Under the pieces are notes generated by a model. It was not told the DNA's origin. It worked only from the letters and a program-made list of their open reading frames with translations, and made no database searches. Of a DNA stretch of 64,000 nucleotides, positions 58,408 to 64,000 are shown piece after piece (positions within the stretch are counted from its first letter, which is position 1; every line of letters starts with the position of its first letter). Where the stretch lies: assembly GCA_013289445.1 (NCBI GenBank), contig JABCZZ010000005.1, positions 3,700-67,699 of the forward strand, written 5' to 3'. A program made the translations under genes and the position numbers. The stretch comes from Alphaproteobacteria bacterium (GTDB taxonomy: Bacteria > Pseudomonadota > Alphaproteobacteria > Rickettsiales > JABCZZ01).

Positions 58408-59304
58408 TCAGTGAGACGTCACGCGACGCTGAATGAAATCCTCGATTTCACGTTCAGACTCCAGCTTAAAACGATCGTCATTGGGCGTATCCCCGTCATA
58501 GCGTTCAATGGAAATTCCATGAAAATAGGACTTAAAAAAATTGTCGTCTATATCTGGCGGGTTCTTTCCGGCGAATAGCTTGTTTTTAATGATAAGCGTG
58601 TATTGCAATATATGCTGCATGCGCCAACGCATCGAGGCCACAAGCCGCTCATCTCTTTCTCGAAACCATCGCGTGAAGGTGACGGGTGCAGGCAGGCTGG
58701 CTACAATAAAACTGTCTTCCATAGTATTTAGCTGCTTTACCGGCTTGCCAAAATAATCCTTTGCCGCCTGCTTCAGACCAAAAGAATCCGGGCCTACCTG
58801 CACAACATTGACGTAAAGCGTAAATATTTCGGCTTTGGAAAAATGTCTTTCCATCTTAAATGAATATATAATTTCAATGTATTTACGTAAGAATGAATGA
58901 TCAGCACCCGTGAAGACATTCTTCACCAGTTGTTGGGTAATGCAGCTGTTGCCGATTAAAGGCTCTCCCAGCCGGAAATGCCGCTCTATGCTCTGGTAAA
59001 TTTTATCAAGCGCAACGCCATGGTGGTAGGGAAATTCGGTATCTTCACCTACCATGAGGGCCAGTACGAGATCGGCCGGCATATCTTTTAGAGTAAGATT
59101 ATCGGGCAACCCCAGGCCTGCCTGGCGTAAATAACTTTTAAACGGAGGGCCATAAGTAACTACCCCGTGAAGTTCGTCCACCGGTGCGCTGATATAGATG
59201 CATAGCGTTACACCGGAGAATAGCAGGATGACTATCAAGCAAAAACAGGCCGATTTTCTAAAAAAGATTGTCAATCGTGCAATTCCCGAGTTCACGAGGT
59301 TCAT
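58408..59304 (-). CDS. Monofunctional GT51 peptidoglycan glycosyltransferase
   Basis: 298-aa inner-membrane lipid-II polymerase-type enzyme without a transpeptidase domain. The membrane anchor is ~20-40. GT51 motif 1 (VGEDTEFPYHHGV) has the catalytic Glu, motif 2 is GNSCITQQLVKNVFTG (usual form GGSTITQQL), motif 3 KYIEIIYSFKMER and motif 4 FSKAEIFTLYVNVVQVG, then FGLKQAAKDYFGK. A ~70-residue C-terminal extension beyond the usual MtgA length follows. It overlaps the Wzy/S9 fusion gene by 4 bp (ATGA), so it is translationally coupled to it. A 210-bp gap (58198-58407) downstream shows no gene. Confidence 0.88.
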   Translation of the reverse strand: MNLVNSGIARLTIFFRKSACFCLIVILLFSGVTLCIYISAPVDELHGVVTYGPPFKSYLRQAGLGLPDNLTLKDMPADLVLALMVGEDTEFPYHHGVALDKIYQSIERHFRLGEPLIGNSCITQQLVKNVFTGADHSFLRKYIEIIYSFKMERHFSKAEIFTLYVNVVQVGPDSFGLKQAAKDYFGKPVKQLNTMEDSFIVASLPAPVTFTRWFRERDERLVASMRWRMQHILQYTLIIKNKLFAGKNPPDIDDNFFKSYFHGISIERYDGDTPNDDRFKLESEREIEDFIQRRVTSH

Positions 59305-62300
59305 GGCAGAAACGCGGATATATCCAACATCAATAATCCGAAATCCTGAAAATGTGTAATATCATGTCCGTCGGGATAAATATATTCTGTCGCACTTCCA
59401 TGATAGCCAGGGTCGTACATTCCGCGTATGGAGAAATAGGGTATGTGCGCGCGCATCGCGGCATCGCGTAATCCCTGCTGCCCTATTCCTGATTGATCAA
59501 CCATTGCGACAATTCCCGGATTGTGGGCGGCAATCAATGCCTGCACCGTTGCTCCTGCAGAGATAGACCAACTGACAATCGTGCCGACCTTGCGCTGCTT
59601 TAGAAAGTCTACGGATGCGTCCAGGCAGTCTTGAAGATAGGGCTCGCTATATTCTTCTTCAAATTCACGCCCCCGGCCAACGCTGCCAGGATAATTCATG
59701 GCGAGAACGCCATATCCTTGCCGCGTTAGATAATGAAAATAGGGATTATAACGTGGAGATACGTTCTCTTTAGGCCCGCCGTGCCACCATAAAATAACTT
59801 TTTTTGTCTGCAGATTGCCGAAATAAAATCCCTGATACCGCTCTTTTTTGCCCGAGATTATGACTTCATGCGGAACCGGAATATCATTCGCCAGGGGCAG
59901 GTGCGACATGATTAAGGTTTGCCAGTGTCCGGCCTTCCATTGAGCCAGCGTTTTCGCATGTGTCTCACCAGAAGCTATGCTGTAGACCTCCGAGCCTATG
60001 TGTTTTGCTTTATATATAATCTCGTTTTCCGCTGGCTGGCGGTATCCCGTAATCCAGTAGTAGCTTTTCGCGCCTACACGGATGAGATTGTCTTCTTTAT
60101 CGAGAATATCAGCATTAATATTTTGGACGGCGTTTTCGGTAAGGTTATCGCCATTGCGATCTATCGCATATATCTTTCGGAATGTTTCGGAGCGTCTCAA
60201 GCCGGATATAAGCGGAATATCTGATGACTGTATGAAGCCATGCGTATCGACAAAACCGTCCAAAAGATGCGTAGGAGTGCAGGTAATTTTATCCTCGACG
60301 GCACAACGCCACAACACGGCGCCGGTTTTATTCTGTATGCCTAAAAGGTGAGTATTATCCACCCATTTACAAGAAGTAAAAAGCACAGGAGTGGTTTGCA
60401 AATGTGTTATAGCGGCTTCCTGCCCAATCTCGCCGAAAACCTGCTGCTTAGAGTTTTTCCACGACACTCTCGACGTATCTTTTGATACACAGGCATTACC
60501 ATTATCTTCAGAAGGCGGCGTCAGATCGGTAAGAGTATTTTTGCCCTTATCAAAAAGAAAAAGAGAAATTTTCCGCCCTTGCAATTTGTCCGCTCCATCA
60601 AGGAGGAAACGATTCTCCGACAGAGGCAGCGGGCTATAAAACTGAGTGGCTGGAAATGTATCGAGCAGCGCATCGCTGATAAGAGGCTCGAATGCCTTGC
60701 CTTTGATCAGATAAGGCTCGAAACGCCCTCTCCAGTTGGCTGAAACTAATGGATGGTCTTGCCATTCTGCAATATAACTCTGCGTTTGCGCCCATTGGAG
60801 CGAGGATATATTCGGACACGTTCCCAGTTCTCTGGCCGTAAGCTCGCGCGGCAGTACATAGGCATAGCGGGCAAGCAGATCGAGATAAGAGGTAAATGGA
60901 GCGCTGATGCACCCATGCTTGTAGGTGAATATTTGGCTGTAAAGCTGTAATGCATCTTCCCATCGATGATCTTGGGTCGCTTCAAGTGCCATCGAGTGTT
61001 TGGTGGAAACGCGATAGGGCCAATTCTTTTGCGATGCAGATACATATTCATGCAGATGCTTATTATGCGCCTGAGACAAACGATAAGCATAAAGATCGTT
61101 CCAATATATATCCCAAGGCCATAGGCGGAATGCATACCAAAGCGAGTCTGTTTCTCTGTAGGCGAGTCGGATGGTAAAAGTTGCGGCCTGCATAATCACA
61201 ATGCAGGTGAGCGCTATAATGCCAAGCCGAATAGGGATGGAGATATTCGCCCGAAGAGGCATTGTCTGAAGGCTAGGTGCGCGCGCAACCATGAAACATA
61301 CGGCAAATGCGAGGAGGTTGCCCGGCCTTTCAAATGGAAAGTCGGCGAAGGCGTCAATTGATAAGGCAATGCAGGACACAAAAAGCAGGTAACGAGAGAA
61401 ACTTTCATCACTCTGCTCAGAACTTCGCAATGCACGCATGCCCTCGCGTAGTGGAAAAAACAGCAAAGCAATCAGTAATAGCGTACCTCCTGCAAACCCA
61501 TTTTCTGCAAATGCCTGCAGATAGTCATTGTATAAACCCGGCATATTGTCAGAAAAATAACTGTGTGGAACGCTGGCTAAATCGGCATATTCAGGAAGGT
61601 AAACGCGCGCATTACCGCTGCCCACTCCATGAACAGGATGCTCTATCGCCATGGCCAGTCCTATGCTCCATAACTCTTCACGGCTGTTCCATTGGCTGAC
61701 ATGCGCAAATGAGATTATACTTTCTTGGTAGGGCATGGCGCTTCGCCATTTAAAAGGCGTGGGCATGACGGCAATCACGCCCATGATAATCACGCTGGCT
61801 AGCAAGAAGGCGATCCACGCTTTAATGGCTGAGGTAATTCTCAGGCCAAGGGCTGGGTATGCGATACCCATGGCAATGACCGCAGTCATTACCCATGCTG
61901 AGCGGGTACGCAAAGCAAAAATGAAATACACGTCTGCAAGAAGTCCAAGATATAATAGTATCTTCCATGAAGTGCGCTTGGCCCGCAGAAAGCAAAGTAT
62001 CTGCAATGGCAATAATTGCGCCAGAAGAACACAGACGGCATCGCGTGAGCCCAGTAACGAACTTAAAAAATCCATCTGTGGAATGGAAAATAAAGGCTCA
62101 TGTGCGAATATATTCCATAACAGTCCCGCCATAATAAGATGCGCGCAAACGACGAATGCAGTTGCTATCTTAAGGGGAGAAAGTTTAACGCAAGGCAACC
62201 CCAGAACGATGATGATAAATGCAAGAGTCATGCAGCAAGATTGCGCGTATAACCCAAAGTTAAATTCAGGTCGGTAAGTAAGCAACCGGCTTAGAAGTAA

Positions 62301-62519
62301 TAGAGTTAGGACGCCTATCCAGCTATCGCGATAAATGATGTGTGAGCGAAACAAGACCATGCCACCTACGAATATCGCGGCACAGAAAAAGCCCAGTCTT
62401 TTGACGGAATGAAACGTTTCTCCGAAATCAGGAAAAACCGCACACTCTACGATGACAAGTAAAAAACAAAATATAATTGCCGCGCTGGCGTCTCGTTTCG
62501 GATGTGTAACACTATTCAT
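59301..62519 (-). CDS. O-antigen ligase/polymerase-like membrane protein fused to an S9-like hydrolase
   Basis: 1072 aa from the ATG at 62519 (a TTG 60 bp upstream is possible; neither has a strong RBS). Residues 1-~460 hold about 10-12 membrane helices with a Wzy_C/O-antigen-ligase core: WNSREELWSIGLAM (~280), HPVHGVGSGNARVYLPEY (~294) and GLYNDYLQAFAENGFAGG (~329). Residues ~470-650 are helical and TPR-like. Residues ~650-900 look like a beta-propeller as in S9 peptidases. Residues ~906-1072 are an alpha/beta hydrolase with VILWWHGGP, NYPGSVGRGREFEEEY, a putative nucleophile in SWSISAGA (~Ser987), Asp in RGMYDPG (~1036) and His in PDGHDITHF (~1052). The S9 GxSxGG elbow is altered. Coupled to the GT51 gene behind it. 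Probably assembles and edits or transfers an envelope glycan or its peptide; this is inference. Confidence 0.8.
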   Translation of the reverse strand: MNSVTHPKRDASAAIIFCFLLVIVECAVFPDFGETFHSVKRLGFFCAAIFVGGMVLFRSHIIYRDSWIGVLTLLLLSRLLTYRPEFNFGLYAQSCCMTLAFIIIVLGLPCVKLSPLKIATAFVVCAHLIMAGLLWNIFAHEPLFSIPQMDFLSSLLGSRDAVCVLLAQLLPLQILCFLRAKRTSWKILLYLGLLADVYFIFALRTRSAWVMTAVIAMGIAYPALGLRITSAIKAWIAFLLASVIIMGVIAVMPTPFKWRSAMPYQESIISFAHVSQWNSREELWSIGLAMAIEHPVHGVGSGNARVYLPEYADLASVPHSYFSDNMPGLYNDYLQAFAENGFAGGTLLLIALLFFPLREGMRALRSSEQSDESFSRYLLFVSCIALSIDAFADFPFERPGNLLAFAVCFMVARAPSLQTMPLRANISIPIRLGIIALTCIVIMQAATFTIRLAYRETDSLWYAFRLWPWDIYWNDLYAYRLSQAHNKHLHEYVSASQKNWPYRVSTKHSMALEATQDHRWEDALQLYSQIFTYKHGCISAPFTSYLDLLARYAYVLPRELTARELGTCPNISSLQWAQTQSYIAEWQDHPLVSANWRGRFEPYLIKGKAFEPLISDALLDTFPATQFYSPLPLSENRFLLDGADKLQGRKISLFLFDKGKNTLTDLTPPSEDNGNACVSKDTSRVSWKNSKQQVFGEIGQEAAITHLQTTPVLFTSCKWVDNTHLLGIQNKTGAVLWRCAVEDKITCTPTHLLDGFVDTHGFIQSSDIPLISGLRRSETFRKIYAIDRNGDNLTENAVQNINADILDKEDNLIRVGAKSYYWITGYRQPAENEIIYKAKHIGSEVYSIASGETHAKTLAQWKAGHWQTLIMSHLPLANDIPVPHEVIISGKKERYQGFYFGNLQTKKVILWWHGGPKENVSPRYNPYFHYLTRQGYGVLAMNYPGSVGRGREFEEEYSEPYLQDCLDASVDFLKQRKVGTIVSWSISAGATVQALIAAHNPGIVAMVDQSGIGQQGLRDAAMRAHIPYFSIRGMYDPGYHGSATEYIYPDGHDITHFQDFGLLMLDISAFLP

Positions 62520-62555: not shown

Positions 62556-62586
62556 TGTAATGACCTTACAAGGAGCCAAAGCCCCT
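62556..62586. other. Inverted repeats between the Sel1 gene and the fusion gene
   Basis: TGTAA-TGACC-TTACA (62556-62570) and an imperfect AAGGAGC/GCCCCTT pair (62570-62586) lie in the 97-bp gap between the Sel1 stop and the fusion-gene ATG. No T-tract follows on the minus strand, so they are not a clean terminator. They may modulate read-through. Confidence 0.25.
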
Positions 62587-62616: not shown

Positions 62617-63501
62617 TTAATTTGCGGGATGTTGCGTGCGCCATGCATCGGCACGTTTTTTACCTTCCGATATTTGGTCTGGCGTTGCTTCTTTCTCGAC
62701 AGAAGCTAATGTGGCAATGGAATATTTATGGCCCTGCTGGGCTGAAAGGCTAAACCACATAATAGCTGCCGCCTCGTCTTTTGTTACACCTTGTGCCTCG
62801 TGATACGCATTGCCCAGCATCCATTCCGCGCGAGCATTGTTATGTTCGGCCGCTTTGAGCCACCATTTCACTGCTTCGGTATCATTTTTAGGAACCGCTT
62901 TTCCTGCATGGTATAAATTACCTAATAAAATTTGCGCCTTCACACTCCCAAGCATTGCCGCAGAGCGATACCATTTCAGGGCTTCCTCATTGTTCTTTGC
63001 AACACCTTCGCCAAGTGTATAGACATTTGCAAGGGAGAGCTGTGCATTGATATTGTTTTGTTGAGCTGCTTTGGTCCACAACATCATAGCTTTTGCGTTA
63101 TCCTGAGGCACGCCGTGACCCATGTAGTAAAGAAAGCCTAAGGCTGCTTGTGCTCTGGCGTTTCCCTGATCTGCCGCTTTCTGATACCAGCCTGCAGCAT
63201 AGGTAGGATTTTTTTCAACCCCATCGCCATCCTGATAGGCATAGGCAATTAATAATTCAGCGTCGGGATTGTTCTGAACGGCTGCTTTACTGTACCATTT
63301 GAGCGCCTCCGGCAAATCTTTGGCAACGCCTTTGCCGTCATGATACGCCATGCCTAAGCGAATCTGGGCTGCAGCATCACCACGCTGCGCATCGGCACGC
63401 AATTTGGCTATGTCGCCGGCATCGTCTGCCATTAGGCTCTGAGCCCAGACAAGTGAAAGGAGCATTAACAGGGAAGTCCCCAACCTTCTTCTGCTCATCA
63501 T
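62617..63501 (-). CDS. Exported Sel1-repeat (TPR-like) protein
   Basis: 294 aa. The ATG at 63501 is preceded by CTGGAG at 7-bp spacing. A signal peptide (~1-25, ending MADD) is followed by six to seven Sel1-like repeats of ~36 residues, each with the pattern A-x-x-x-LG-x-x-Y-x-x-G-x-GV-x-K(N/D)-x-x-EA-x-x-W-x-x-KAA. Such solenoids scaffold protein complexes, often in the periplasm at cell-wall machines. It leads the minus-strand run with the Wzy/S9 fusion and GT51 genes and diverges from a second GT51 gene. Confidence 0.88.
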   Translation of the reverse strand: MMSRRRLGTSLLMLLSLVWAQSLMADDAGDIAKLRADAQRGDAAAQIRLGMAYHDGKGVAKDLPEALKWYSKAAVQNNPDAELLIAYAYQDGDGVEKNPTYAAGWYQKAADQGNARAQAALGFLYYMGHGVPQDNAKAMMLWTKAAQQNNINAQLSLANVYTLGEGVAKNNEEALKWYRSAAMLGSVKAQILLGNLYHAGKAVPKNDTEAVKWWLKAAEHNNARAEWMLGNAYHEAQGVTKDEAAAIMWFSLSAQQGHKYSIATLASVEKEATPDQISEGKKRADAWRTQHPAN

Positions 63502-63619: not shown

Positions 63620-64000
63620 TTGGGATTAATTAAAGGGGCCTGTGTAGTTGTATGTGGATGTCTGATGCTGCTCACCGCCTATTCTTTTTACCTATATCAA
63701 ACAGCACCCATAGAGCAGTTGGCTGATAAGGTTCTCTACCTTCCCATACATTCTTCGACCCCACGCTATATAGGTCTTAAAGAGCCTGCTTTGGTTACAT
63801 TCGAAAGCATTCCTGCCGACCAGGTGATTGCAATTACGGTGTGTGAGGACGGCGCCTTTTTCTTGCATAATGGTTTTAGCATTCAGTCTATTAAATCAGC
63901 GCTCTGGGAGGCATTAGCTGAAAAAAAACCCATGCGTGGCGCCAGCACTATTAGCCAGCAACTCGTTAAGAATATTTTTCTTACGCAGAAAAAAAGCTTT
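63620..64000 (+). CDS. Second monofunctional GT51 glycosyltransferase, N-terminal part (cut by window edge)
   Basis: 127 codons from a probable TTG start with AGGGGGA nine bases upstream; no ATG is available before residue 16. An N-terminal membrane anchor (LIKGACVVVCGCLMLLTAYS) is followed by GT51 motif 1 in ITVCEDGAFFLHNGF with the catalytic Glu and motif 2 in RGASTISQQLVKNIF. It is a paralogue of the GT51 at 58408 but not a recent copy. The divergent gap to the Sel1 gene (63502-63619) holds TATAAT-like elements for both directions. Whether a transpeptidase domain follows cannot be seen. Confidence 0.82.
   Translation, partial: MGLIKGACVVVCGCLMLLTAYSFYLYQTAPIEQLADKVLYLPIHSSTPRYIGLKEPALVTFESIPADQVIAITVCEDGAFFLHNGFSIQSIKSALWEALAEKKPMRGASTISQQLVKNIFLTQKKSF

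Follow-up and report, generated by a model that had tools for sequence, protein, structure and literature searches.

Ligases of the WaaL type (solved structure 7tpg; Pfam PF04932; CAZy family GT121) possess two arginines with a role in diphosphate binding and a His that is proposed to activate the acceptor, as laid out in PMC10920833. The same paper gives Asp or Glu at the place of this His for almost every related polymerase family in the clan; in GT127 no acid is found there and a Glu elsewhere likely serves. It also describes WadA, an earlier case of an O-ligase that carries a further enzyme domain, in which the partner is a GT25 glycosyltransferase and not a hydrolase. S9 acylaminoacyl peptidases (5l8s, 2hu8, 1ve6), in turn, consist of a propeller and a hydrolase fold. 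Here we describe a gene that joins parts of both kinds in one protein. It is located at 59301..62519 on the minus strand of a 64,000-nucleotide stretch of an alphaproteobacterial contig (JABCZZ010000005.1; the whole stretch is referred to as the window). No description of the fusion, or of the family to which its C-terminal module belongs, was found in a literature search in which most subscription journals and all bioRxiv preprints were outside reach. This agrees with a preliminary description of the window, which knew of no protein joining O-ligase and S9 parts: the parts are known, and the literature reached describes neither their combination nor the module family.

The fusion gene starts with an ATG at 62519 and ends with a TGA at 59303-59301, encoding 1072 amino acids (1092 if the alternative start, TTG at 62579, is used). 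The single uninterrupted frame of the preliminary description, which had named no strand, was borne out on the minus strand; read on the plus strand, the same interval contains many stops. Predicted structures and searches of solved structures recovered the parts in the order given there, i.e. a Wzy_C-like domain, a TPR (tetratricopeptide repeat)-like spacer, a propeller and a hydrolase. A profile built from the window protein and six relatives matched, among the sequences of solved structures, WaaL (7tpg) at E = 7e-9 over profile positions 168-356 as well as S9 acylaminoacyl peptidases and other S9 enzymes at E = 1e-7 and weaker. No NCBI named family scored above its cut-off for the window protein or for eight other proteins scanned; the best match among these was an IctB-like family for the Wzy_C protein of L047 (E = 4e-14; 52 bits versus a cut-off of 366).

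The WaaL-like GT-C membrane domain spans residues 61-420 (61260..62339, minus strand), where structure prediction and the solved-structure search revealed the WaaL fold, so that the O-ligase fold which the preliminary description had expected in the N-terminal half is present. Residues 193-348 (61476..61943, minus strand) match Wzy_C (PF04932) with E = 3.8e-13 and 49.9 bits, above the cut-off of 31.7. In the alignment to 7tpg (numbering by hand), R206 (61902..61904, minus strand) meets R191, the first diphosphate-binding Arg of WaaL, and R280 (61680..61682, minus strand), held in a large loop as in WaaL, meets R265. The protein thus combines the Pfam match, the fold and both arginines of the WaaL type and lacks the acceptor His: Y330-N331-D332 (61524..61532, minus strand) stands at the place of H313-N-D, with Tyr for His and the acid at 332 kept. 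Further unlike WaaL, it adds an extra helix, the TPR and the S9 half.

Absence of the His is common to proteins of this type. In eight TPR-type rows, the window protein included, position 330 is Y, M, M, M, Q, L, L and L, with His, Asp or Glu in 0 of 8. As a background we used 28 other Wzy_C matches from eight genomes, in which this place is occupied by His in 19 and by Glu in 6, L034, L039 and L044 having neither; four of the 28 are below the Pfam cut-off (L031, L045 and L046 among the 25 with His or Glu), L032 was excluded because it is the L001 fusion itself, and ambiguous residues (X) were deleted before aligning. L070 and L072, two of three further relatives found with an N-half profile, are likewise without His, Asp or Glu at 330. 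Asp or Glu at 332 was found in 13 of 14 rows without His, Asp or Glu at 330 versus 5 of 26 others, and in 10 of 11 versus 5 of 26 after near-copies were collapsed (Fisher p = 8e-5, a value that overstates independence because the rows share ancestry). R206, R280 and E339 are invariant in a seven-row alignment.

The WaaL-like half might accordingly be read as a pseudo-enzyme, an anchor and glycan sensor that delivers the hydrolase and leaves all chemistry to the S9-type half. The composition of position 330 (0 of 8 versus 25 of 28) speaks for this, as do the module's occurrence in free-standing form with a leader or simple anchor and its membrane partner of another type at other loci (see below). 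The three invariant residues and the acid mostly retained at 332 speak against it. Furthermore, a missing His need not mean an inactive enzyme, because GT127, according to PMC10920833, likely uses a Glu elsewhere. We therefore consider a pseudo-enzyme possible, if rather doubtful.

Behind the membrane domain, the TPR spacer (residues 449-571; 60807..61175, minus strand) was recognized by predicted structure and solved-structure searches and displays tandem helix-turn-helix repeats; in the Pfam scan no TPR model matched the window protein. The S9 acylaminoacyl-peptidase-like half (residues 564-1072; 59304..60830, minus strand) comprises, with limits set by eye, a beta-propeller at about residues 577-884 (59868..60791, minus strand; model and family alignment) and an alpha/beta hydrolase part at about residues 885-1072 (59304..59867, minus strand; Pfam and model). 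Structure comparison revealed the propeller and hydrolase fold of S9 enzymes; Peptidase_S9 (PF00326) remained below the Pfam cut-off in the window protein (17.3 versus 22.6 bits), and S9 proteins are recovered when profiles of its relatives are used.

The HGGP and NYPGSVGRGREF motifs and the Ser, Asp and His candidates of the preliminary description were all recovered. By family alignment together with secondary structure, the predicted triad consists of the nucleophile S987 within S-x-S-x-G (SWSISAG; 59559..59561), D1036 (59412..59414) and H1052 (59364..59366), all on the minus strand; none of the three residues varies in the 30 family rows that are readable there (L007a, whose frame breaks before the triad, was dropped from these counts). 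In the model, a strand (E980-986) leads into a helix (H987-999) at the nucleophile. S985 was ruled out as nucleophile, the family alignment pointing to S987. HGGP is present in all 33 aligned rows, two outer rows included, whereas C677, C717, C739 and C747 of the propeller are invariant in 31 of 31 family rows and absent from the two outer ones; fragments P0022, P0033, P0034 and P0035 as well as L006 were left out of this alignment. The module thus shares with S9 acylaminoacyl peptidases the whole propeller and hydrolase fold, HGGP and a conserved Ser-Asp-His. It differs from them by an identity of only about 13%, by the four cysteines and by its elbow, which is not G-x-S-x-G: position 985 is Ser in 27 of 30 rows, Gly in P0031 and P0032 and Thr in P0018. 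It differs also in that its relatives mostly have leaders or anchors and fused or neighbouring envelope enzymes.

Of 24 relatives examined that have no polytopic half, 19 carry a hydrophobic stretch ahead of the module. Among the other five, P0025 begins within the module, the leaders of P0031 and P0032 are very short and milder, and P0008 and P0017 have none. Given these leaders or anchors and the invariant cysteines, the simplest reading of the sequences is that the module would be an exported, disulphide-bonded enzyme.

Searches for the same architecture, as the preliminary description had suggested, revealed the fusion on other contigs. The alignment of the window protein with P0010 covers 1095 columns (30%; E = 1e-143 and 7e-144) and that with P0014 covers 970 (27%; E = 7e-77 and 4e-77); at this extent of alignment, the architecture is beyond chance. 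It is also displayed by P0019 (1291 amino acids; Wzy_C above cut-off, module, Amidase_3 below cut-off) and P0027 (1086 amino acids; Competibacteraceae; Wzy_C above cut-off; named O-antigen ligase family protein in its source), and in part by the fragment P0012, which aligns from window residue 422 on. That the window's protein was found on one contig only would fit an assembly error joining two genes. However, with four other full architectures, one of them on a 1.28-Mb contig (P0027), such an error is refuted as a general explanation and its probability is close to nil; the fusion is real.

Searching with the whole protein yielded four matches among 7996 scored candidates, namely the window's own protein and P0002-P0004. 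With residues 600-1072, 11 matches at E = 1 or better were obtained among 4792 candidates (own included), of which P0010 and P0014 carry Wzy_C. Of 7991 candidates scored with a profile of 15 module rows, 43 matched at E = 0.01 or better. These comprise 25 with E = 6e-55 or better, two at about 1e-34, and 16 at 1.5e-8 or weaker, all of these 16 bearing PF00326 by precomputed annotation. The 25 strong relatives are a lower bound, as others such as P0010 and P0014 are absent from the list, and include some fragments. At E = 1e-30 or better, the module was present in 2 of 339 and 2 of 329 genomes from the groups of G003 and G001, all of them previously found carriers (at most three candidates scored per genome among the matches listed); given so few carriers, the module family is rare. 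The N-half profile at E = 1e-25 detected 4 of 311 genomes (G001 included) and 0 of 329 genomes, the latter in a search without a positive control. On the tree the fusion needs three changes, which decides neither for nor against one origin; 13 tree rows are stand-alone modules, mostly without neighbourhood data, and many relatives show no visible partner. With respect to other sources, five pattern matches in viral contigs included none confirmed as a relative, and PADLOC gave no match to a defence system.

P0002-P0004 have in common with the window protein the N-half (Wzy_C and TPR) and the loss of the His, and carry a different C-terminal domain, with PF00704 (GH18-like) below cut-off in two of the three. 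Because of this other C-terminus, the N-half may be a platform for different hydrolases.

Among module relatives, the recurrent partner is a muramoyl-alanine amidase. P0006, P0009 and P0015 (above cut-off) and P0019 (below) carry Amidase_3 behind the module in one chain, and so does L007, above cut-off and past a frame break near an ambiguous base; stand-alone, divergent Amidase_3 genes adjoin the module in L005 and L006. In P0030 the module is preceded by Amidase_2 (E = 2.6e-25), which has another fold than Amidase_3. The positions that we take to be the Amidase_3-type metal ligands are retained in 9 of 13 aligned sequences. In the window itself, the fusion gene is followed by a gene for a GT51 transglycosylase (PF00912, E = 5.4e-37; 58408..59304, minus strand; 298 amino acids), the ATG of which overlaps the stop of the fusion (ATGA).

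Membrane partners of another type were found at other loci. In L002 (1760-4321) and L004 (1341-3932), a divergent membrane protein of 853 or 863 amino acids with TPR matches adjoins the module, and L007 (847-3447) shows a fusion of the module with a relative of this protein that is PMT_2-like below cut-off. Searching ten genomes with the L004 protein gave matches at E = 1e-50 or better only in those of L002, L004 and L007; of the remaining ones, three module-bearing genomes had weak matches only and four had none. A split version is present in the L001 genome (G001:C171; L047:3593-7115), where a Wzy_C gene, whose product (L039/L047) has a TPR-like C-terminus by eye and also lacks the His, directly precedes an S9 gene whose product has PD40 and an anchor-like start. 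In the six module-bearing genomes searched, 14 non-fused Wzy_C matches were found, of which this alone shares its contig with a PF00326 match, at a distance of about 2 kb.

Our leading, albeit tentative, reading is a membrane protein in which a WaaL-fold domain and a periplasmic serine hydrolase are coupled, the latter acting on a peptidoglycan-like lipid-linked glycan. The domain order, its recurrence, the conserved residues and the partnerships are observations; binding, chemistry and substrate we infer as follows. By alignment to WaaL, R206 and R280 would hold an undecaprenyl-diphosphate-linked glycan. Since the acceptor-activating His is gone, the membrane half is probably no standard O-antigen ligase; it may use another base, with D332 as the best candidate, or only bind substrate. 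The TPR may position the substrate or a partner. The odd number of membrane helices in the model, 13 when counted by hand, would place the C-terminal half in the periplasm, where the S9-type hydrolase (S987/D1036/H1052) could take a peptide, amino-acyl or acyl group off the held or newly made glycan. Muramoyl-alanine amidases joined to or beside relatives, and the GT51 gene following in the window, point, only by association, to a peptidoglycan-like substrate as more likely than O-antigen.

Several observations weigh against this coupling to a peptidoglycan-like substrate. The model of the N-half is of modest quality (predicted local distance difference test, pLDDT, 64.8); pLDDT is below 50 where the first two of the 13 helices are placed, and two more span just 13-14 residues. 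Hydropathy alone revealed 11 spans in the window protein and 9 to 12 in five relatives, one span of P0010 falling inside the soluble module, so that the parity of the membrane spans is not secure. Of the periplasm-facing hydrolase of the preliminary description, the location itself is likely from the 13 model helices, the four invariant cysteines and the 19 of 24 leaders, while the argument from helix parity is insecure. L071, the third of the further N-half relatives, retains the His at 330. S9 enzymes mostly cut L-peptides, which would make a muropeptide an unusual substrate. The window protein itself bears no amidase, the amidase ligands are lost in 4 of 13 sequences (P0010, P0007, P0008 and P0013), and L005 and L006 both belong to the Bdellovibrionales. 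A GT51 gene near the module was seen only in the window and at L005 (about 1.5 kb away), and the link is weak, because 1 of 22 PF00912 matches in six module-bearing genomes adjoins a module.

A comparison with SEDS (shape, elongation, division and sporulation) proteins FtsW and RodA bears on the base. By eye, D332 occupies a place like that of the Asp in the SEDS motif H-T-D (Y-N-D versus H-T-D), which was present in four of five SEDS proteins examined (L075 gave no readable motif, and L078 was left out). For FtsW, PMC8765783 reports that H295A complements and D297A fails to. The likeness is suggestive. Against it, hhalign with a SEDS profile gave a probability of 2% and covered only residues after 332, so that an equivalence of D332 with the SEDS Asp is not supported, and, unlike SEDS proteins, the fusion has no PF01098 among its Pfam matches up to E = 1. 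A more far-reaching and improbable version would make the fusion protein a third kind of enzyme on lipid-linked peptidoglycan-like glycan: its WaaL-fold domain, with a SEDS-like Asp for the ligase His, would make or attach a cell-wall-type glycan, and the periplasmic S9-type hydrolase of the same protein would trim the peptide on the emerging strand; in relatives, the muramoyl-alanine amidase on the same chain would remove the whole peptide.

In the view of the preliminary description, the membrane half is an active O-antigen ligase or Wzy polymerase, and the attached hydrolase trims what it produces. The fold and hydrolase parts of this view stand, and PF04932 above cut-off, the WaaL fold and both arginines favour it; polymerisation or ligation in the manner of Wzy or WaaL is opposed by Tyr330 at the place of the His. 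Moreover, the module partners of relatives point to the cell wall and not to O-antigen, and no O-antigen genes were noticed when the window's open reading frames were read by eye, no systematic search having been made. We judge this reading unlikely. A PglL-like protein O-oligosaccharyltransferase with an attached peptidase for processing the glycoprotein would suit the fact that S9 enzymes cut peptides; against it, the His needed by that enzyme class is missing here, and the muramoyl amidase partners are left unexplained. In its favour, PglL and WaaL are members of one family according to PMC3643930. Overall, this too is an improbable alternative. An XrtA-type link of ligase and hydrolase genes gave no NCBIfam match, no paper combining its features was found, and it was not used.

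With this fusion, the activities that share a chain with an O-ligase fold now include a peptidase-type enzyme. The module represents a rare S9-like family in which several members have envelope enzymes fused to them or encoded next to them. Should a lipid-linked cell-wall glycan be the substrate, one molecule would couple the handling of the polymer with the editing of its peptides. A clade without the ligase His and with both arginines kept also offers a direct test of a change of chemistry in WaaL-fold enzymes.

Directly upstream of the fusion, the window contains a gene for a Sel1-repeat protein (Pfam; 62617..63501, minus strand), followed by a divergent second GT51 gene (63620..64000, plus strand) that is cut by the window end and is 35% identical over 119 amino acids to the first. 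As to genes near the module elsewhere, a small secreted-looking protein without Pfam match (L004:4002-4535) is encoded between the membrane gene and the module, similarly by eye in L002, and in L047 a UbiA-type gene and a gene for a protein without Pfam match come after the S9 gene. On a Bacteriovoracaceae contig, a putative esterase gene (PF00756; L003:6856-7860) touches the start of the module gene. Amidohydrolase-like neighbours, alike by eye and below the Pfam cut-off, occur in Myxococcales (L001:7776-9242) and Bacteriovoracaceae (L007:4939-6369). Finally, in P0040 (1032 amino acids) Amidase_3 and an ordinary S9 domain share one chain, their order being, by eye, the reverse.

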